Program-made: the position numbers and the translations under genes
NCBI RefSeq assembly: GCF_000147875.1
Contig: NC_014507.1
Span: 248,001 to 312,000 of the forward strand
Length of the DNA stretch: 64,000 bases
Reading direction: 5' to 3'
Source: Methanolacinia petrolearia DSM 11571
GTDB lineage: Archaea; Halobacteriota; Methanomicrobia; Methanomicrobiales; Methanomicrobiaceae
Notes under the pieces: model-generated
Databases searched by the model: none
Seen by the model: the letters and a program-made list of their open reading frames with translations, nothing else
What the model was told of the DNA's origin: nothing
Part shown: positions 42,449 to 49,380 of the stretch, in pieces
How the letters are laid out: each line of letters opens with the position of its first letter
Numbering within the stretch: the stretch's first letter is position 1

Positions 42449-43579
42449 TTATTTTCCAGCACTCTTCCCGATCGAATCCATAAACCTGTCCCTGATCTCT
42501 TCAGGTGTAAGCGCGAGATTCGGAGCGTCCGTGTTTCCCGGTTTTATGATGACGTGAATGAACGAGGGGCCTTTACCGCGGTTTAAGAATGCCTCTTTCA
42601 GCTCTTCGGCGGTTCTAACTTTTATAGTATTCTTAATCCCTGCCCCTTTTGCGATGAGTTCGAGGTCGCAGGTCGTCCACGAGTGAGTAATCTGCATGCC
42701 GGTGCTTCCGAACGCACCGTTGTCAAGGGCCACAATCGTCAGGTTGTCCGGTTTTTCCGCCGCGACAGTCGGAAGAATCGCGGTTCCGAGAAGGCTCCCG
42801 TCGCCGTCGATTACAACAACATCCTTGTCCTGCCCTAATGCGAGCCCGAGCCCTATGGGTGTTGCCTGTGTGTAGCTGCCGAGCATGTAGAAGTTTTTAG
42901 GCCTGTCTCCTGCGGCATGCATCTCTTTGCAGGGGACACCGATGTTCACGACCACTGCTTCATCTTCCAGTTCTCCGGCGATGACCGAGATCGCTCCGGC
43001 ACGGTTCATGACAGGCTCTTTAATGCTGCGGTTATACTCAAATCTGATTTCACGTTCGCGGGGAGGGAACGGTTTTTCGGCACAGCCGCCGTTTCCTTCC
43101 TCCCAGAGTTTCGGGAGGATAAGGATAACATGGATCCCGCCGTTTTCAAAAGAAAGCCGAATGGCCTCCCTGATCTTTTCCAGGTCACCCGATCCTTTGA
43201 TTATTGTATGTGAGATCCCCATTGCATCGAGAATTGCCGGAATTCTGCTGTTGAACGGGACCTGTGCGGCGATCTTTTCATTGTATACCCCCCGCCAGCT
43301 TGCGATTATAGGCAGCGGAAGACCGTAAAGAGATGTCAGCGACATCATCGCATTGAGGGAATTTCCGAGACCCGAGCTCTGCATCTGGAGAACGTACCTG
43401 CGCCCCGCAAGAGCAAGACCTGCGCAGACCCCGACACCGTCCTCTTCGCGGTTGATGTTTACATAGTGAAAGTCTTTCTCCAGCAGTGCACAGAGATCCT
43501 TGGTTCTGTCGCACGGAAGGGATACGACGAATTCGATCCCCTCTTCACGCAGTATCGATTCAATCTTTCTTTCAGGCAT
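42449..43579 (-). CDS. comDE: Sulfopyruvate decarboxylase, fused alpha and beta subunits
   Basis: 376 residues. Converts sulfopyruvate to sulfoacetaldehyde in coenzyme M biosynthesis, using thiamin diphosphate. Residues 1 to about 175 correspond to ComD (VVSLPCDRTKDL, MQSSGLGNSLNAMMSL) and about 190-376 to ComE, with the thiamin-diphosphate motif GDGSLLG followed about 25 residues later by DN. In Methanocaldococcus the two are separate genes; here one polypeptide carries both. Its start overlaps cysteate synthase by 8 bp. Confidence 0.92.
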   Translation of the reverse strand: MPERKIESILREEGIEFVVSLPCDRTKDLCALLEKDFHYVNINREEDGVGVCAGLALAGRRYVLQMQSSGLGNSLNAMMSLTSLYGLPLPIIASWRGVYNEKIAAQVPFNSRIPAILDAMGISHTIIKGSGDLEKIREAIRLSFENGGIHVILILPKLWEEGNGGCAEKPFPPREREIRFEYNRSIKEPVMNRAGAISVIAGELEDEAVVVNIGVPCKEMHAAGDRPKNFYMLGSYTQATPIGLGLALGQDKDVVVIDGDGSLLGTAILPTVAAEKPDNLTIVALDNGAFGSTGMQITHSWTTCDLELIAKGAGIKNTIKVRTAEELKEAFLNRGKGPSFIHVIIKPGNTDAPNLALTPEEIRDRFMDSIGKSAGK

Positions 43580-44846
43580 ATTTCCTCCTCCACTCCGTAA
43601 TCTTGTCTTTTAGTTCGTCTGCTTCATCCAAACTCCGGAGAGAGGCGGAAGGCCTGACGGGTATCATGTCGAGGTCCTCTGCCGCCCTCCTGTATCCTCC
43701 GCCTGTGATATTGAGCAGGATATTATCATCCCTGTTAACATCTCCGGATTCCACCGCACTTATGAGCGATGCGACACATACTTCAGCAGCAGGATCGAGG
43801 TCGGGTCCTTCGAGGTCCATAAAGAGCCTTCCTGCTTTTTTCGCATCCCCGCTTTTCACTCCTCTCATTATACCGTTTGTCCCGCTGAGAGCGTCGAAGA
43901 GGCCGCCGGTAATTGAATACGGGGGGTTTCTGTTCGTGAGCACAGTTGCGTATGTCTCCATTGCTGCCTCCTTTCCCCCGGGCATATCCTTCTCAGGAAT
44001 AATCTCCCTTCTCCTCTCAGCCCATGCATTTACCATCGGCACGAACGGTTCATTCTGTGAAAGATAAAGCCGGGGCAGGCGGTCGCCGAACCTTCCGTCG
44101 GCAAGAAGCCTCTTTCCCATCTCCCATGCGGCAATCCCGCCCGTCCCGCTGCCTACGGCCTGGAAGTACCAGTCCGGCATCTTTCCTATGGCCATGGTTC
44201 CGTCGAGCATCACCGTTCCCATGCCATCCCTCCGGGCCGGATTCTTTGCACCGCCTTCGGATATCACTCCCGGAACGGTGCAGATCTCGTTGCCCAGTGC
44301 GATTGCATCTGAATAATCACCTTCGATTGTCACGAGAAAGACCGAATCGCACTCCCTGGTCGTCCAGATGCTGCCCGCCGCTTTTTTTGGGACTGATATT
44401 ATCACAGGAGTCCCGGTTCCTGCTGAAACTTCTGCAAATGCCCGTCCTGTGTTTCCTGCCGACGAGATCTGGAGGATTCCGTTCTTCAGCCTCTCCTTTA
44501 TCCTGAGCATCGTCGGAACGGCCTCCAGCTCCTTGAACGAGCATGTCCTGATAAAAGCCCTCTTCTCAGGCCAGTAGCCGTTGAAGGTAATGTAGAGGTT
44601 TTTAAGCCCGAGGTGATCCGCAAGACCTTCGCTACGGTAAGTTGCGGGGCATGTGTCCGTCTGTGTCCACCCGGAGACGGGGAGCCAGTCGTGATATCTG
44701 AACATTCCGGGGAGATCGCGGACAGTGATCTGCTTTGCCGAGTAATCGGCATATACCAGACCATTGCAGCCTTTAATGCATGTATTGGTATAACAGTCGT
44801 CGATCGCCTCTCCGCAGACAGGGCACCGGAGTATGTATTCGCCCAT
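43572..44846 (-). CDS. Cysteate synthase
   Basis: 424 residues from the ATG at 44846. A PLP enzyme of the threonine synthase type that replaces the phosphate of O-phosphoserine with sulfite to give cysteate, the CoM precursor in Methanomicrobiales and Methanosarcinales. Visible are an N-terminal Cys cluster (RCPVCGEAIDDCYTNTC), a Lys-rich EKRAFIRTCSFKE region, SSAGNTGRAFAEV for cofactor phosphate, and VGSGTGGIAAWEMG. The operon position next to comDE and the methanogen setting favour cysteate over threonine synthase; sequence alone makes the two hard to separate. Confidence 0.87.
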   Translation of the reverse strand: MGEYILRCPVCGEAIDDCYTNTCIKGCNGLVYADYSAKQITVRDLPGMFRYHDWLPVSGWTQTDTCPATYRSEGLADHLGLKNLYITFNGYWPEKRAFIRTCSFKELEAVPTMLRIKERLKNGILQISSAGNTGRAFAEVSAGTGTPVIISVPKKAAGSIWTTRECDSVFLVTIEGDYSDAIALGNEICTVPGVISEGGAKNPARRDGMGTVMLDGTMAIGKMPDWYFQAVGSGTGGIAAWEMGKRLLADGRFGDRLPRLYLSQNEPFVPMVNAWAERRREIIPEKDMPGGKEAAMETYATVLTNRNPPYSITGGLFDALSGTNGIMRGVKSGDAKKAGRLFMDLEGPDLDPAAEVCVASLISAVESGDVNRDDNILLNITGGGYRRAAEDLDMIPVRPSASLRSLDEADELKDKITEWRRKYA

Positions 44847-44847
44847 A

Positions 44848-46086
44848 TTACATACCTCCCAGCGTGAATTTGCCCGATTCAATCTTTTCCTTAAGATTCG
44901 AGCATATCTGCTCACCTTTCCGTCGGTCCGACTGCCTGAGAACGACAGGGATCTCCTTTCCGTTGAGTGCGATCGACCCGGTATCCATCGAATAGACCTC
45001 CCCTATGCAGGTGGAGAGGCATGCCCCGCAACTGAGGCATCTTGAAGTTAGAATTCCGCCTCCGGGCATGATCGCATCGGCAGGACAGTGCTCCTGTGCG
45101 GGACATTCCCCACAGAGGAGGCATTTTGTTGGATCTACCGTGATATGCCGGCCGGCCGACTGCCAGATCCTCCCGTAGTCCGAAAACCCGAGTGTCCGCC
45201 TGTCAAAGACATCCACAATAGGGAGCAGGATCTCCTCGTCGAGCACTGATAAGCGTGCGATGCATTCGTTGTCGATAACCGGAATCGCGGCGGCTATCGA
45301 TGTAATGCATTCAGGTCCTGCGGACGTTTTGAATTCTCCCATAAATTCAGGGTTCATTCCTGCCATACCGGCAGAAACCGAAAGGTTCGGTTTTTCAGAA
45401 CTGCTTCTCGTTCCGGTACCAAGTATCAGTCCTTCTGCACCGTTCAGCAGAACTCCTGCACCGGATCTGAGGAACCTGGTATCGGGATCGTTCTGGAGGG
45501 GGTTGATCTCTCCGCATCCGCTGACCGTCGCCTGTGTGAGTCCGCCTGATAGAGGCAGGACGGAGAATATGGTGTTCACGGGATCTTTACCCGAGTTTAC
45601 GAATGCCGAGTAATTTTTGAATGCGCTTCTCGACGTGATCATCCTGGCATAATGAAGTTCGTCGCCGTAAACCGTGCATTCAAAGTTTTTTCCTCCGGCT
45701 TCTGTTTGTACCTCAATCTCTTTTTCTGCTGATGCGATGTCCCTGAAGAGATTTCCTCCCCCGTACGAGTTTGATGCGTGGGATGTGCCGTATACTACAA
45801 GATCTACCTGCCCCAGCCCCTCGTTCGGGCACGGGCCAGGGAAGGCAGGGACACCGTTCAGTGTTATGGAGTCGGCCCTGCGGAACGTCCCCGGCTCTGC
45901 GACAGGAACGCTCAGTATTGCCATCGTTCCCGACATGACCCCGCACGTTCCGCAGGTGACAACATCGATATCATCGGGCGAAAGCCTCTCGCCGTCGCGG
46001 ACTTTCTTCTTGAACTCCCCTGCTGTGAGCACGACTGCAGTTCCATCCCTGATCTTTTTATTGATCTCTGCGACAGTCTTCACCAT
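44848..46086 (-). CDS. DUF39 protein with two [4Fe-4S] sites (methanogenesis marker 16); candidate last CoM enzyme
   Basis: 412 residues. The DUF39 core spans about 1-310 with Cys in VVTCGTCGVMSG, GPCPNEGLG and ATVSGCGEINP, of which the first probably carries persulfide or metal. A ferredoxin domain follows at about 320-375 (CLLCGECPAQEHC, CLSCGACLSTC). Relatives make homocysteine from aspartate semialdehyde and sulfide. I recall a report that a related protein (ComF) forms CoM from sulfoacetaldehyde. Its place directly before cysteate synthase and comDE makes that role likely here, but it is inference. The CBS domain of the homocysteine enzymes is absent. Confidence 0.85.
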   Translation of the reverse strand: MVKTVAEINKKIRDGTAVVLTAGEFKKKVRDGERLSPDDIDVVTCGTCGVMSGTMAILSVPVAEPGTFRRADSITLNGVPAFPGPCPNEGLGQVDLVVYGTSHASNSYGGGNLFRDIASAEKEIEVQTEAGGKNFECTVYGDELHYARMITSRSAFKNYSAFVNSGKDPVNTIFSVLPLSGGLTQATVSGCGEINPLQNDPDTRFLRSGAGVLLNGAEGLILGTGTRSSSEKPNLSVSAGMAGMNPEFMGEFKTSAGPECITSIAAAIPVIDNECIARLSVLDEEILLPIVDVFDRRTLGFSDYGRIWQSAGRHITVDPTKCLLCGECPAQEHCPADAIMPGGGILTSRCLSCGACLSTCIGEVYSMDTGSIALNGKEIPVVLRQSDRRKGEQICSNLKEKIESGKFTLGGM

Positions 46087-46733
46087 ATCCTGATATCCTC
46101 CACCCTTGTATGTATACCATACCTGTTCTCAAGCACCATATTGACAACGCCAGTATGTGCAAGATTCATCATGCAGAAGCCCGGCAGGAATTTTTGTCTC
46201 CTTCCGAATTCCGGTTCTTTGTTTATTGTCTGTGCGACTCCTTCGAACCCGATGATATGATAGGCGGAGATCGATTTAACCTCATCCTCCTTCTCCCTTG
46301 CAAGTAGCGGCGAGACGACATGGCAGGTCAGGAGGCCTGTGAGATAGTCAGCTTCGATGACCGAGAGTACGTGCTGGACAGGGCACCCGGCGCCCGTCGG
46401 CCTGCCGAGGACGAGATCGCCTTTCTTTATCTCAAGTTTTTCAGTCATATCGGGCCTGAAAGGAAGGACGATCTTCCTGGCGGAAGGTTCCCTTGGCAGC
46501 GGGTGGAGGATGAAGTCGAACGGATCCCCGTGAATATCACGATCCCCGTAGTTTGCTGTCAGTATTGATTCCGGCGGATTATTCAAATCCGGGCTCTCTC
46601 TATAGAACGGGCAGTCCGGTTTTTCTTTCTTTCCTCCCGCGAGCATAAGAACAAACTCCTCGCATGTCGAAGCCCCGCATGCCCCGCAGTTCTTTCCCGG
46701 CGGAATCCATTCACCCGGATCCGTATTTTTCAT
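46080..46733 (-). CDS. Fe-S protein of CoM operon
   Basis: 217 residues. The N-terminal CGACGASTCEEFVLMLAGGK ending in a fourth Cys (PDCPF) is the four-Cys [4Fe-4S] motif also found in CODH/acetyl-CoA synthase and RnfB proteins. The rest (about 60-217) is a conserved unknown domain with VLGRPTGAGCPVQHVLSVIE and FLPGFCMMNLAHTGVVNM. Its 3' end overlaps the DUF39 gene by 7 bp. Likely an electron donor or activator of that enzyme. Confidence 0.75.
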   Translation of the reverse strand: MKNTDPGEWIPPGKNCGACGASTCEEFVLMLAGGKKEKPDCPFYRESPDLNNPPESILTANYGDRDIHGDPFDFILHPLPREPSARKIVLPFRPDMTEKLEIKKGDLVLGRPTGAGCPVQHVLSVIEADYLTGLLTCHVVSPLLAREKEDEVKSISAYHIIGFEGVAQTINKEPEFGRRQKFLPGFCMMNLAHTGVVNMVLENRYGIHTRVEDIRIW

Positions 46734-46738
46734 GACAG

Positions 46739-47446
46739 TCAGTCTCCCCTGAAGAGGAAGTCCGCACCTTCAAGCTTCCTGATTACCCCGAAGTGGTTCT
46801 GCCATCCTATATCCTTCTTCCCGACGCAGATCGTGCAGACCCCGAGAGGCGGTGCCCCTTTGAGCGTGATCTTCTGCGGGTCGGAGATCTCCTCCTGTTC
46901 GTCTATCGCCCTGAAGAGGTACCTGAGCCCGGTTCCCTGCACTGCGTTGGTCTCGACGATATCGAGCCCTTCGTTCACCTCGCGGATCTTTTCCCTGAAG
47001 ACCTCCTTTTCAGCCTGAGAAACGAGATCTGTCCTTGTAACAACGGCGATATCAGCGAGGGCCAGCATTGCGCTCATCTTGAGCGGGGTGTTTACCCCGG
47101 ATATCGAACTCAGGACAACTATTCCGAGCGACTGGGTAGTATACGGCGAGCAGCGGAGGCACAGTCCCGCACTCTCCACTATCAGGAGATCGGCGCCTTC
47201 GGACTCGGCCCACGATATCGCATCGCTTATGACCAGTATCCCGACATGGTCCGGGCAGACGTCCCCCGAGTATACCTTCTTTGTCAGAATTCCGAACTCT
47301 CCTGCAAGCTCCTCGTCCTCAAAGGCCCTGACAACGTCGATCTTCAGGTATGCACACCGTTTTTCCCCCGAATATTTCCTTATCACCTGTTTGACCACAG
47401 CCGTCTTTCCCGCTGACGGCGGCCCCGCGATTACGATCAGTTTCAT
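46739..47446 (-). CDS. SIMIBI-type GTPase/ATPase (HypB/UreG/CobW class), metal or cluster chaperone
   Basis: 235 residues from the ATG at 47446. Walker A is IAGPPSAGKTAVVKQV; the switch with ADLLIVESAGLCLRC includes a Cys pair, and VVTRTDLVS is the base-specificity motif (TRTD for NKxD). A second Cys pair is in VCTICVGKKD. This build is like HypB, UreG and CobW proteins that insert Ni, Co or Zn or assist cluster enzymes. It overlaps the ABC-type ATPase by 4 bp and precedes the Fe-S protein by 5 bp. Confidence 0.8.
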   Translation of the reverse strand: MKLIVIAGPPSAGKTAVVKQVIRKYSGEKRCAYLKIDVVRAFEDEELAGEFGILTKKVYSGDVCPDHVGILVISDAISWAESEGADLLIVESAGLCLRCSPYTTQSLGIVVLSSISGVNTPLKMSAMLALADIAVVTRTDLVSQAEKEVFREKIREVNEGLDIVETNAVQGTGLRYLFRAIDEQEEISDPQKITLKGAPPLGVCTICVGKKDIGWQNHFGVIRKLEGADFLFRGD

Positions 47447-48222
47447 GCCGGATTTACGCTCCTGATAATCTCGCCGGCACGGATCAGTTCTCTCAGCCTG
47501 CACAGGGTCCGGTCCATCCTTATGATCTCTGCAAGCGCATCCCTCTCCTCTTCTCCGGGTTCGAGGATACGTTCCACGGCCCCGTTCTTCATAACAATCC
47601 TTTTTGCAGAGAGCAGTGAGACGACCGGGTCGTGGGTAACGAAGATGAGCGCCTTATGGTGCGTTTTCAGGCATTCGATCACTTTTTCCTTGAATATGCC
47701 TGCATTTTCGATCTCGTCGAGAAGAATAATCGGTGCATTTGAGATCATTATGGCATCTGCGACCATCAGGGACCTTGTCTGTCCTCCGGAAAGCGAGGTC
47801 ATCCGGACTTCGGGAAGGATCTTCTCGCCTGTAAACTCATTCGCAAGGGCGATCGTCCTTTCGACTATTTTTTCGTCCTCTATCTTTCTCGACCTGACAT
47901 GCATTTTGAGAAAATCCCCGGCCGTCATATCTGCAAGACATTTTGTATTCTGGGTGATCAAAGCAACGGGTTTCTTCGCCGGGTCGCGGACGAACTCTTC
48001 AGGGGCAGGTTCGCCGTTCACGAGAACTGTACGGCCTGTAACCGTGTCCCTGTGCGCAAAGATCTCTATGTCGTTTATCAGGGCACTCTTTCCCGATCCT
48101 GTCGGTCCTACTATAGATATCGTGTCGCCCGGGCATATGGTGAGGGAGCTGAAATTTTCCGTCATCCCTTTCCTGTTCCTGCCGGGAAGTATCGTGATAT
48201 CTTCTATTGTCAGGGGGTCCAT
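47443..48222 (-). CDS. ABC-type ATPase without permease
   Basis: 259 residues. One nucleotide-binding domain with Walker A VGPTGSGKS (38-46), signature TSLSGGQTRS, Walker B PIILLDEIE and H-loop VTHD. No membrane partner is encoded nearby, so it is more likely a soluble ABC protein that drives a conformational change than a transporter subunit; AtwA, which activates methyl-CoM reductase, is a precedent. First gene of the six-gene CoM operon. Confidence 0.8.
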   Translation of the reverse strand: MDPLTIEDITILPGRNRKGMTENFSSLTICPGDTISIVGPTGSGKSALINDIEIFAHRDTVTGRTVLVNGEPAPEEFVRDPAKKPVALITQNTKCLADMTAGDFLKMHVRSRKIEDEKIVERTIALANEFTGEKILPEVRMTSLSGGQTRSLMVADAIMISNAPIILLDEIENAGIFKEKVIECLKTHHKALIFVTHDPVVSLLSAKRIVMKNGAVERILEPGEEERDALAEIIRMDRTLCRLRELIRAGEIIRSVNPA

Positions 48223-48359
48223 GTATCAGTATTAGCAGGCTATTTCTTAATATAGATCATTTAAGGCAAAAATTAAGATACTATAGGGAAAATTTTTAAT
48301 TTTATTTTACCTTTTATGCAAATAAATCGCTACGGTTTTTGAGCTGGTTGTGTGAAGTC

Positions 48360-48379
48360 GTTTAACCTCCGGGTTAAAC
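48360..48379. promoter_or_regulatory. Perfect 8-bp inverted repeat in divergent promoter region
   Basis: GTTTAACC-TCCG-GGTTAAAC lies between the CoM operon (starting 48222, minus strand) and the small gene at 48484 (plus strand). It has the length and symmetry of a dimeric repressor site. The HTH protein encoded at 48889 is a candidate binder, by location only. Confidence 0.55.
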
Positions 48380-48483
48380 CATCCAATCGATTCCGTTTAT
48401 ACCTTTTATAACCCGGTCCTTACTATTTAGAATTGTATTTCGGGAGTTCTTACAGGCTGGAAAGATGAATTAAGGAATAAGAT

Positions 48484-48828
48484 ATGACAGAAACCTGTTT
48501 AATAAGGGGAGAGATGAAAATGGAGCTTTCCGGTGCTGACGTGGCAACAGGCATCGCAGAGGATGAATACATAGAGTTCGGAATATCACCGTTCGACGAA
48601 CTTCATGAGATTGAATTGTCGATTAACGACGCCCTTGACAGCTGTGGAGGAGATATTCTTCCTGCGCTGTATCTGCTCAACTACTGCAGGAATCTTGTGG
48701 AAGACGGTGACATGGAGGAGTACATCGAGGCATGCACTCTTCTGTCAGATACTTGCAGGAGCCTTCCCGGCAACAGGGGCGGAAGACTAAGGGCCGTCGG
48801 TGACTACCTGGATTTTTGCATAGACTGA
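48484..48828 (+). CDS. Small acidic protein, unknown
   Basis: 114 residues, helical and acidic, with six Cys (CLIR, DSCGG, LLNYCRN, EACTLL, DTCRS, DFCID). No known family. A strong AAGGGGAG lies 8 bases before an internal ATG at 48520, which would give a 102-residue protein beginning MELSGADV and may be the real start. It precedes the HTH regulator gene on the same strand. Confidence 0.6.
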   Translation: MTETCLIRGEMKMELSGADVATGIAEDEYIEFGISPFDELHEIELSINDALDSCGGDILPALYLLNYCRNLVEDGDMEEYIEACTLLSDTCRSLPGNRGGRLRAVGDYLDFCID

Positions 48829-48888
48829 TGGCAGATATTTTGCCTTTACAGGAAAACACTTAATATCTATTTTTCTCAATTGTATGTC

Positions 48889-49380
48889 ATGTTCTCGCAA
48901 AGGATATTCCAGGTAGGTTTTAAAACCGCACTGCAGGAGGAGATCGACAGGAAAGGCGTAAGCATCCGTGAACTTGCAGAGAGAGCTGGAATTCCTGTTG
49001 CAACACTCTACAAGATAACTTCGGGAGAGCGCGATCCGCGGTTTTCAACTGTGCAGGCAATCGTAAATGCATTGCAGCCCCAGGATTCCGATTTTGTTGC
49101 CGTTATAGCGGCCAAGTTCCTGCTCGACGATATAGAATCAAGCAGGCCTGATGTGGGAGCAAAGAAGGTGAAGGTTCGCGGCTATCCTGCGTATACGATG
49201 GAAGAGTGCATCATCTCAGCGGTCAGGGCGGAAAAGGACGGTGCTCTCGGGATCGTCTGTGCCCCTGTACTTGCGTCGATGATCGAACGTATAGTCGAGA
49301 TCCCGGTCGTAATTATGAAACCGCAGGCCGAGACGATAATCGAGGCTTTGAAGACACTCGACCGGCGGCTTGAAAAATAA
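48889..49380 (+). CDS. HTH (XRE) regulator with C-terminal sensor domain
   Basis: 163 residues. A helix-turn-helix of the XRE/Cro type at about 18-70 (SIRELAERAGIPVATLYKIT then SGERDPRFSTV). The C-terminal part (about 95-163: VRGYPAYTMEECIISAVRAE ... VVIMKPQAETIIEALK) is an alpha/beta unit found in archaeal regulators and may bind a small ligand. A TATA-like run about 25 bp before the ATG at 48889 suggests a leaderless transcript. Confidence 0.8.
   Translation: MFSQRIFQVGFKTALQEEIDRKGVSIRELAERAGIPVATLYKITSGERDPRFSTVQAIVNALQPQDSDFVAVIAAKFLLDDIESSRPDVGAKKVKVRGYPAYTMEECIISAVRAEKDGALGIVCAPVLASMIERIVEIPVVIMKPQAETIIEALKTLDRRLEK

Follow-up and report, generated by a model that had tools for sequence, protein, structure and literature searches.

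Deletion and complementation experiments in M. acetivorans have identified marker 16, a DUF39/ferredoxin protein, as the primary coenzyme M (CoM) synthase, ComF (Chadwick et al. 2025, PMC12068725). CoM genes are often accompanied by three others, which encode an ATPase, a Ni-binding GTPase and a COG2000 iron-sulfur (Fe-S) protein. These three are given as 'role unknown' in the legend to Fig. 2 of that paper, whose examples of co-localization with CoM genes span six orders of methanogens. We analyzed an operon with these genes in Methanolacinia petrolearia DSM 11571. The window, as used here, is the whole stretch of DNA analyzed, 64,000 nucleotides long (NCBI RefSeq assembly GCF_000147875.1, contig NC_014507.1, positions 248,001 to 312,000 of the forward strand). 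Positions are counted from its first nucleotide. The operon (42449-48222) has a gene set identical to that of the CoM operon in Fig. 2B of Chadwick et al. We refer to the ATP-binding cassette (ABC) ATPase, the HypB/UreG-like GTPase and the COG2000 Fe-S protein together as the trio, and to cysteate synthase as CS.

Co-localization of the trio with CoM genes and the assignment of the DUF39 protein were known beforehand. The new findings are that the trio is not DUF39-specific and that it occurs in bacteria as a cassette linked to sulfur genes. The text of PMC12068725 does not count the trio or compare CS with marker 16 as its partner, and it mentions no bacterial relatives with NifS or Rrf2. In the literature searched, which most subscription papers lie outside, COG2000 was named by that paper alone, apart from one unrelated match, and no paper was found on the combination of NifS, Rrf2, HypB and ABC proteins.

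The trio has features in common with the SUF and SMS systems (SufBC, SmsBC; PMC12192291): a soluble ABC ATPase without a permease, in many loci a cysteine desulfurase partner, a regulator of the Rrf2 type, and Fe-S chemistry. It differs in having the COG2000 Fe-S protein and the HypB-like GTPase in place of SufB/SufD, and most trio genomes retain SUF or ISC as well. The window operon contains no permease gene, and none of its six proteins matched SUFBD_core. A cysteine desulfurase gene is also absent from the window operon, and is adjacent to the trio in 44 of the 82 other loci described below.

The GTPase shares with HypB, UreG and CobW a PF02492 domain, a P-loop and Cys/His motifs of the metal type. 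Unlike HypB and UreG, it scored below the cut-offs of TIGR00073 (66.6 bits against 121.2) and TIGR00101 (19.3 against 204.2) and has an extra C-terminal CxxC. In the loci read, the GTPase genes were not beside hydrogenase or urease genes. AtwA (component A2), the ATPase of methyl-CoM reductase (MCR) activation, has two ABC domains per chain. The window ATPase differs in having one.

A six-gene CoM operon in M. petrolearia

All six genes are on the minus strand, and all six open reading frames (ORFs) start with ATG. The first three, in 5' to 3' order, encode the trio: a soluble ABC ATPase of 259 aa (47443..48222; a single PF00005 domain, 55 bits, and below all NCBIfam transporter cut-offs shown), the HypB/UreG-like GTPase of 235 aa (46739..47446; PF02492, 49 bits) and the COG2000-type Fe-S protein of 217 aa (46080..46733; N-terminal four-cysteine [4Fe-4S] motif, PF04060, 36 bits against a cut-off of 23). 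Marker 16/ComF, the CoM synthase, follows (44848..46086). It is a DUF39/HcyBio protein with an inserted ferredoxin domain (TIGR03287, 510 bits against 364; PF01837, 325 bits; weak Fer4_7 match at residues 313-338). Next is CS (43572..44846; TIGR03844, 610 bits against 325), which makes cysteate from phosphoserine and sulfite. The last gene encodes a fused sulfopyruvate decarboxylase, ComDE (42449..43579), with the alpha (TIGR03845, residues 4-159) and beta (TIGR03846, residues 193-370) profiles in one chain, both over cut-off. The matches to CS and sulfopyruvate decarboxylase are those of the phosphoserine (type 2) pathway of CoM synthesis.

The junctions, from the ABC ATPase through ComDE, are -4, +5, -7, +1 and -8 bp. 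An earlier note on this DNA, made from the sequence alone, had described overlaps of 4-8 bp or gaps of 1-5 bp, and the match is exact. The gene identities that it gave were borne out by the Pfam and TIGR families, and its choice of the DUF39/ferredoxin protein for the last step of CoM synthesis agrees with the published assignment of ComF (PMC12068725). The same six-gene order was seen repeatedly across the class Methanomicrobia. Because this order recurs, and because marker 16 is immediately preceded by the Fe-S gene in 36 of 37 Methanomicrobia genomes that carry both, the arrangement is not due to chance. The six-gene operon is real, and its spacing suggests a single transcription unit.

The trio tracks CS better than marker 16 in Methanomicrobia

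We scored the presence of these genes in 61 Methanomicrobia genomes. The co-occurrence counts and the Fisher p value ignore kinship among the genomes. Full-length Fe-S protein and full-length GTPase were found in an identical set of 42 genomes. Trio and CS were both present in 41 genomes; 1 had only the trio, 0 had only CS, and 19 had neither (Fisher p = 7e-15, kinship ignored). Trio and marker 16 were both present in 37, with 5 genomes having only the trio, 1 having only marker 16, and 18 having neither. Within Methanomicrobia, the trio tracks CS better than it does marker 16.

Gene order in several genomes separates the trio from marker 16. An ABC-GTPase-FeS-CS-ComDE operon, with no marker 16 in the genome, is found in four members of a single genus (G007, G048, G053 and G054; loci L063, L065, L067 and L068). 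Another genome (G057) has a trio-CS-ComDE operon at one site and, 0.2 Mb from it, a marker16-ComDE pair. A link between the trio and marker 16 exists too, given the adjacency of the Fe-S gene in 36 of 37 genomes.

We also noted several isolated genes and remnants. A lone marker-16 gene (L091/L073, genome G041) has a phytoene desaturase gene as its neighbor, and G041 carries neither CS nor the trio. At L081 (G001:C1:608000-622000), only broken remnants of the ABC and GTPase genes are left, and CS, marker 16 and the Fe-S protein are missing from that genome; these remnants are a decaying CoM operon. Solitary second copies of the trio, with no CoM genes nearby, were found at L064, L066, L070 and L069, and the copy at L069 is near a gene for a RamA-like corrinoid activator. 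Separately, we set aside a universal role in methanogenesis (as a helper of MCR, F430 or Mtr), because 18 of the 61 genomes lack the trio, CS and marker 16; these 18 are assumed to be methanogens with MCR.

The trio in the rest of the archaeal phylum

The archaeal survey covered one phylum, in a draw of 246 genomes. Affiliations given as Methanosarcinales-like and Methanocella-like are those that we inferred for the genomes compared. Outside Methanomicrobia, the Fe-S protein was found in 38 genomes, all of which (38/38) had CS. Of the nine genomes that had marker 16 but not CS, none (0/9) had the Fe-S protein. Across the whole phylum, CS was present in 79 of 80 trio genomes.

Most Methanosarcinales-like loci have the order CS-ABC-GTPase-FeS-ComD-ComE, and their marker-16 gene is on the opposite strand, in convergent orientation. 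In one Methanosarcinales-like family (f21), marker 16 is not near the CS-trio-ComDE locus. Three Methanosarcinales-like loci (L094, L095 and L096) are extra four-gene operons, ABC-GTPase-FeS-marker16, without CS or ComDE, and a fourth (L097) is an extra trio of the Methanomicrobia type, standing alone. The GTPases of the extra four-gene operons nest inside the Methanomicrobia clade in a quick tree with a midpoint root. These extra Methanomicrobia-type trios (L094-L097) were probably acquired by horizontal transfer.

In the same tree, the CS-linked GTPase lineage of Methanosarcinales is apart from that of Methanomicrobia, and the Methanomicrobia lineage groups with bacteria. Two divergent GTPase lineages are thus present in CoM operons of different gene order. 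Therefore, either the trio was brought into CoM operons on two occasions, or its association with them is ancient. A Methanocella-like archaeal locus (L099) has the order ABC-GTPase-NifS-FeS beside genes for SufC, SufB and ThiF.

The trio in bacteria is often accompanied by sulfur genes

A scan of GTDB genomes with the GTPase alignment gave at least 573 relatives, and we examined the best 80 loci. These were ranked by likeness to one archaeal (Methanocella-like) GTPase (65-77% identity), and the set is biased to one GTPase type. Almost all of the 80 were bacterial, from Omnitrophota, Bacteroidota, Acidobacteriota, Chloroflexota, Planctomycetota, Gallionellaceae, Burkholderiales and others. The trio at L171 is on a contig of 5.26 Mb, and a binning error would not account for it.

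We counted neighboring genes over 82 loci, comprising these top-ranked 80 and two Methanocella-like loci. An ABC ATPase gene was adjacent in 79 and an Fe-S protein gene in 75. Genes for a NifS-type cysteine desulfurase were found in 44, Rrf2 in 31, CysK/CBS-type proteins in 12 and MetB-type proteins in 10. The families were confirmed with Pfam and NCBIfam on representatives. The typical order in these loci is Rrf2-ABC-GTPase-NifS-FeS. One Rrf2 protein was scanned, and it scored higher as CymR than as IscR, with both scores below cut-off.

One Omnitrophota locus (L149, PEAR01000001.1) is an island densely packed with sulfur amino acid genes, in which the trio has the order Rrf2-ABC-GTPase-NifS-FeS. 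Genes for MetB, ThiI-like, ThiF, MetN, MetQ, Rrf2, NifS, a second MetB and CBS proteins surround the trio, and its MetB and CBS genes are cystathionine gamma-synthase-like and cystathionine beta-synthase-like, respectively.

We looked for other relevant proteins in 25 non-methanogen trio genomes. No DUF39 protein was found in 23 of them, and 2 had one; most are metagenome bins, so that absences are soft. SufB/D was present in 18 and ComD over cut-off in 1, and 20 had IscU/NifU-type proteins, which scored over cut-off in 19. SUF or IscU/NifU-type proteins were found in 23 of the 25, and on that basis we rejected a role for the trio as the housekeeping Fe-S system of these bacteria.

Conserved residues of the trio proteins

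The predicted [4Fe-4S] ligands of the Fe-S protein (codons within 46611..46688, minus strand) are conserved throughout its family. C16 and C19 were present in 124 of 124 homologues, and C24 and C41 in 123 of 124. Four further residues, C117, H121, C187 and H193, were each invariant in all 124 homologues, bacterial and archaeal. These two extra cysteines and two histidines, in the motifs C117-P-x-x-H121, C187-M and H193 (46155..46385, minus strand), could form a second metal or sulfur site. The protein also has a C-terminal domain of unknown function. The AlphaFold2 model of a homologue (L098) has a mean pLDDT of 87.6. The only sequence relatives of the Fe-S protein in the PDB were large (gamma) subunits of corrinoid/iron-sulfur proteins, through the cluster motif alone.

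In the GTPase, the motifs CPDH, E-x-A-G-L-C-x-R-C and the C-terminal C-x-x-C were invariant in 14 diverse members. Complete ABC motifs are kept in the alignment of the ATPase (A3).

Related cassettes and sequences around the operon

A sister cassette has the same gene pair as the trio (GTPase'-ABC'), with a GTPase ~40% identical and an ABC protein ~47% identical. We found it in the M. petrolearia genome itself (G000:C1, ~2443-2446 kb; L082: 5183-7756) and at L083-L090. A further conserved gene is beside the pair in 8 of 9 loci (not in L086). Where scanned (L082 and L085), its product is a DUF4213/DUF364 protein, annotated as 'putative heavy-metal chelation', and not a COG2000 protein. The cassette falls on the Methanosarcinales side of the GTPase tree. 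Besides marker 16, the source genome encodes another DUF39 protein, of the L-ASST type.

The operon is separated from a divergent gene by an A+T-rich intergenic region (48223..48483), the presumed promoter region, which contains no complete ORF of at least 80 aa. Sigma-70 and terminator scans gave about as many hits as shuffled sequence, and such scans are uninformative for an archaeon. Upstream of the operon, on the plus strand (48484-49380), are the divergent small ORF of 114 aa and a gene resembling a helix-turn-helix regulator.

Discussion

The trio has the appearance of a general module for sulfur or metal clusters, borrowed for CoM synthesis and not confined to DUF39. We tentatively favor, at close to an even chance, an ATP- and GTP-driven module that mobilizes sulfur or metal clusters and serves the whole of CoM sulfur chemistry. 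It is likely that the trio is linked in some way to the chemistry of metal clusters or sulfur, as the earlier note had suggested. A broader proposal is possible, though we hold it more doubtful: the trio with NifS and Rrf2 may be an undescribed ATP/GTP-dependent assembly system, present in many bacterial phyla and in methanogens, distinct from ISC, NIF, SUF, SMS and MIS, and recruited repeatedly for CoM.

Gene content and order, co-occurrence, conserved residues and the sulfur context in bacteria are the observations from which we propose roles for scaffold, ATPase, GTPase and client. In the phosphoserine route, CS would add sulfite, an aminotransferase encoded elsewhere would act next, ComDE would lead to sulfoacetaldehyde, and marker 16/ComF would add the thiol. 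The COG2000 protein, with its [4Fe-4S] motif and putative Cys/His second site, might be the sulfur or cluster carrier. The ABC ATPase could power loading or release in the manner of SufC or SmsC, and the HypB/UreG-like GTPase could gate transfer of the metal or cluster. In bacteria, sulfur would come from cysteine via NifS; in most methanogens the cassette has no NifS gene, presumably because sulfide is used directly. The trio would help the CoM pathway in methanogens and not be indispensable to it. As to the client, co-occurrence favors the CS branch (sulfite) and adjacency in Methanomicrobia favors ComF (thiol); possibly both are served.

Several points weigh against this reading. The function is drawn from gene neighborhood. 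Outside Methanomicrobia, the Fe-S protein is missing from 34 CS genomes and from 38 of 74 marker-16 genomes. In two loci of genus g53 (in G127 and G186) the order is CS-ComD-ComE, with the trio cleanly absent between CS and ComD. Since the trio is missing from these otherwise similar loci and from many genomes with CS or marker 16, it is dispensable or replaceable. The bacterial loci sampled were the top 80 out of at least 573, ranked by one archaeal GTPase and mostly from metagenome bins, and in roughly half of them NifS is not next to the trio. Almost all of the non-methanogen trio genomes (23/25) already have a match to SufB/D or NifU_N. In addition, a fold search of the PDB with the model of the Fe-S homologue gave no match below E = 0.1.

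The earlier note had suggested that the DUF39 enzyme depends on ATP- and GTP-driven cluster loading or low-potential activation, like that of methyl-CoM reductase, and that this need accounts for the trio. On this view, the trio would work for ComF alone, maturing it or activating it reductively and loading its clusters or the sulfur that it inserts. The adjacency of the Fe-S and marker-16 genes, the four-gene operons without CS or ComDE, and the ferredoxin domain of ComF are all consistent with this. We nevertheless consider it unlikely. Trio-CS-ComDE operons exist without marker 16, and in Methanosarcinales-like genomes the trio is inside the CS...ComDE operon while marker 16 is on the opposite strand or far away. 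The marker-16 genomes outside the class that lack the Fe-S protein also argue against such a need, as does the M. jannaschii marker-16 gene, which on a plasmid and by itself allows E. coli to make CoM from sulfoacetaldehyde, as PMC12068725 recounts from its ref. 8. A DUF39-dedicated device is strongly argued against because 23 of 25 non-methanogen trio genomes have no DUF39 protein. The earlier note had made much depend on whether the trio lies mainly away from DUF39 and CS genes; this is the case in bacteria and not in this archaeal phylum. The idea of DUF39 activation is weakened, and the sulfur-linked cassette of bacteria is the part worth following.

Two other explanations give the trio a narrower task. 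It might supply CS with sulfite, for example by energy-driven oxidation or mobilization of reduced sulfur. CS is its tightest co-occurrence partner in the phylum, the trio sits between CS and ComDE in Methanosarcinales-like operons, and the source of sulfite for CoM has been a matter of speculation only (reverse sulfite reductase; PMC6286981). This seems to us quite improbable: the bacterial neighbors NifS, CysK/CBS and MetB handle reduced sulfur, the module has no siroheme or molybdenum enzyme, four trio loci (L094-L097) have no CS nearby, and the trio is absent from 34 CS genomes outside the class. Alternatively, the trio could be an ATP-driven donor of low-potential electrons, comparable to corrinoid or MCR activation, with the PF04060 cluster feeding a reductive thiolation. 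The DUF39 reaction takes 2 or 4 electrons (PMC12068725). The corrinoid/iron-sulfur gamma subunits that share the cluster motif and the extra trio copy near a RamA-like activator gene are also in keeping with electron donation. Against it, NifS and Rrf2 recur beside the bacterial trio, and not a corrinoid, flavin or ferredoxin partner. Moreover, HypB-like GTPases are typical of metal insertion and not of electron transfer. We regard electron donation as very unlikely.

With a sulfur- or cluster-mobilizing module as the favored reading, the question moves from what DUF39 needs to the nature of the sulfur module, which can be approached outside strict methanogens. If the trio is a machine that mobilizes sulfur or Fe-S clusters, this would bear on how methanogens obtain the sulfite and the thiol sulfur of CoM, and on the number of Fe-S and sulfur systems that exist.

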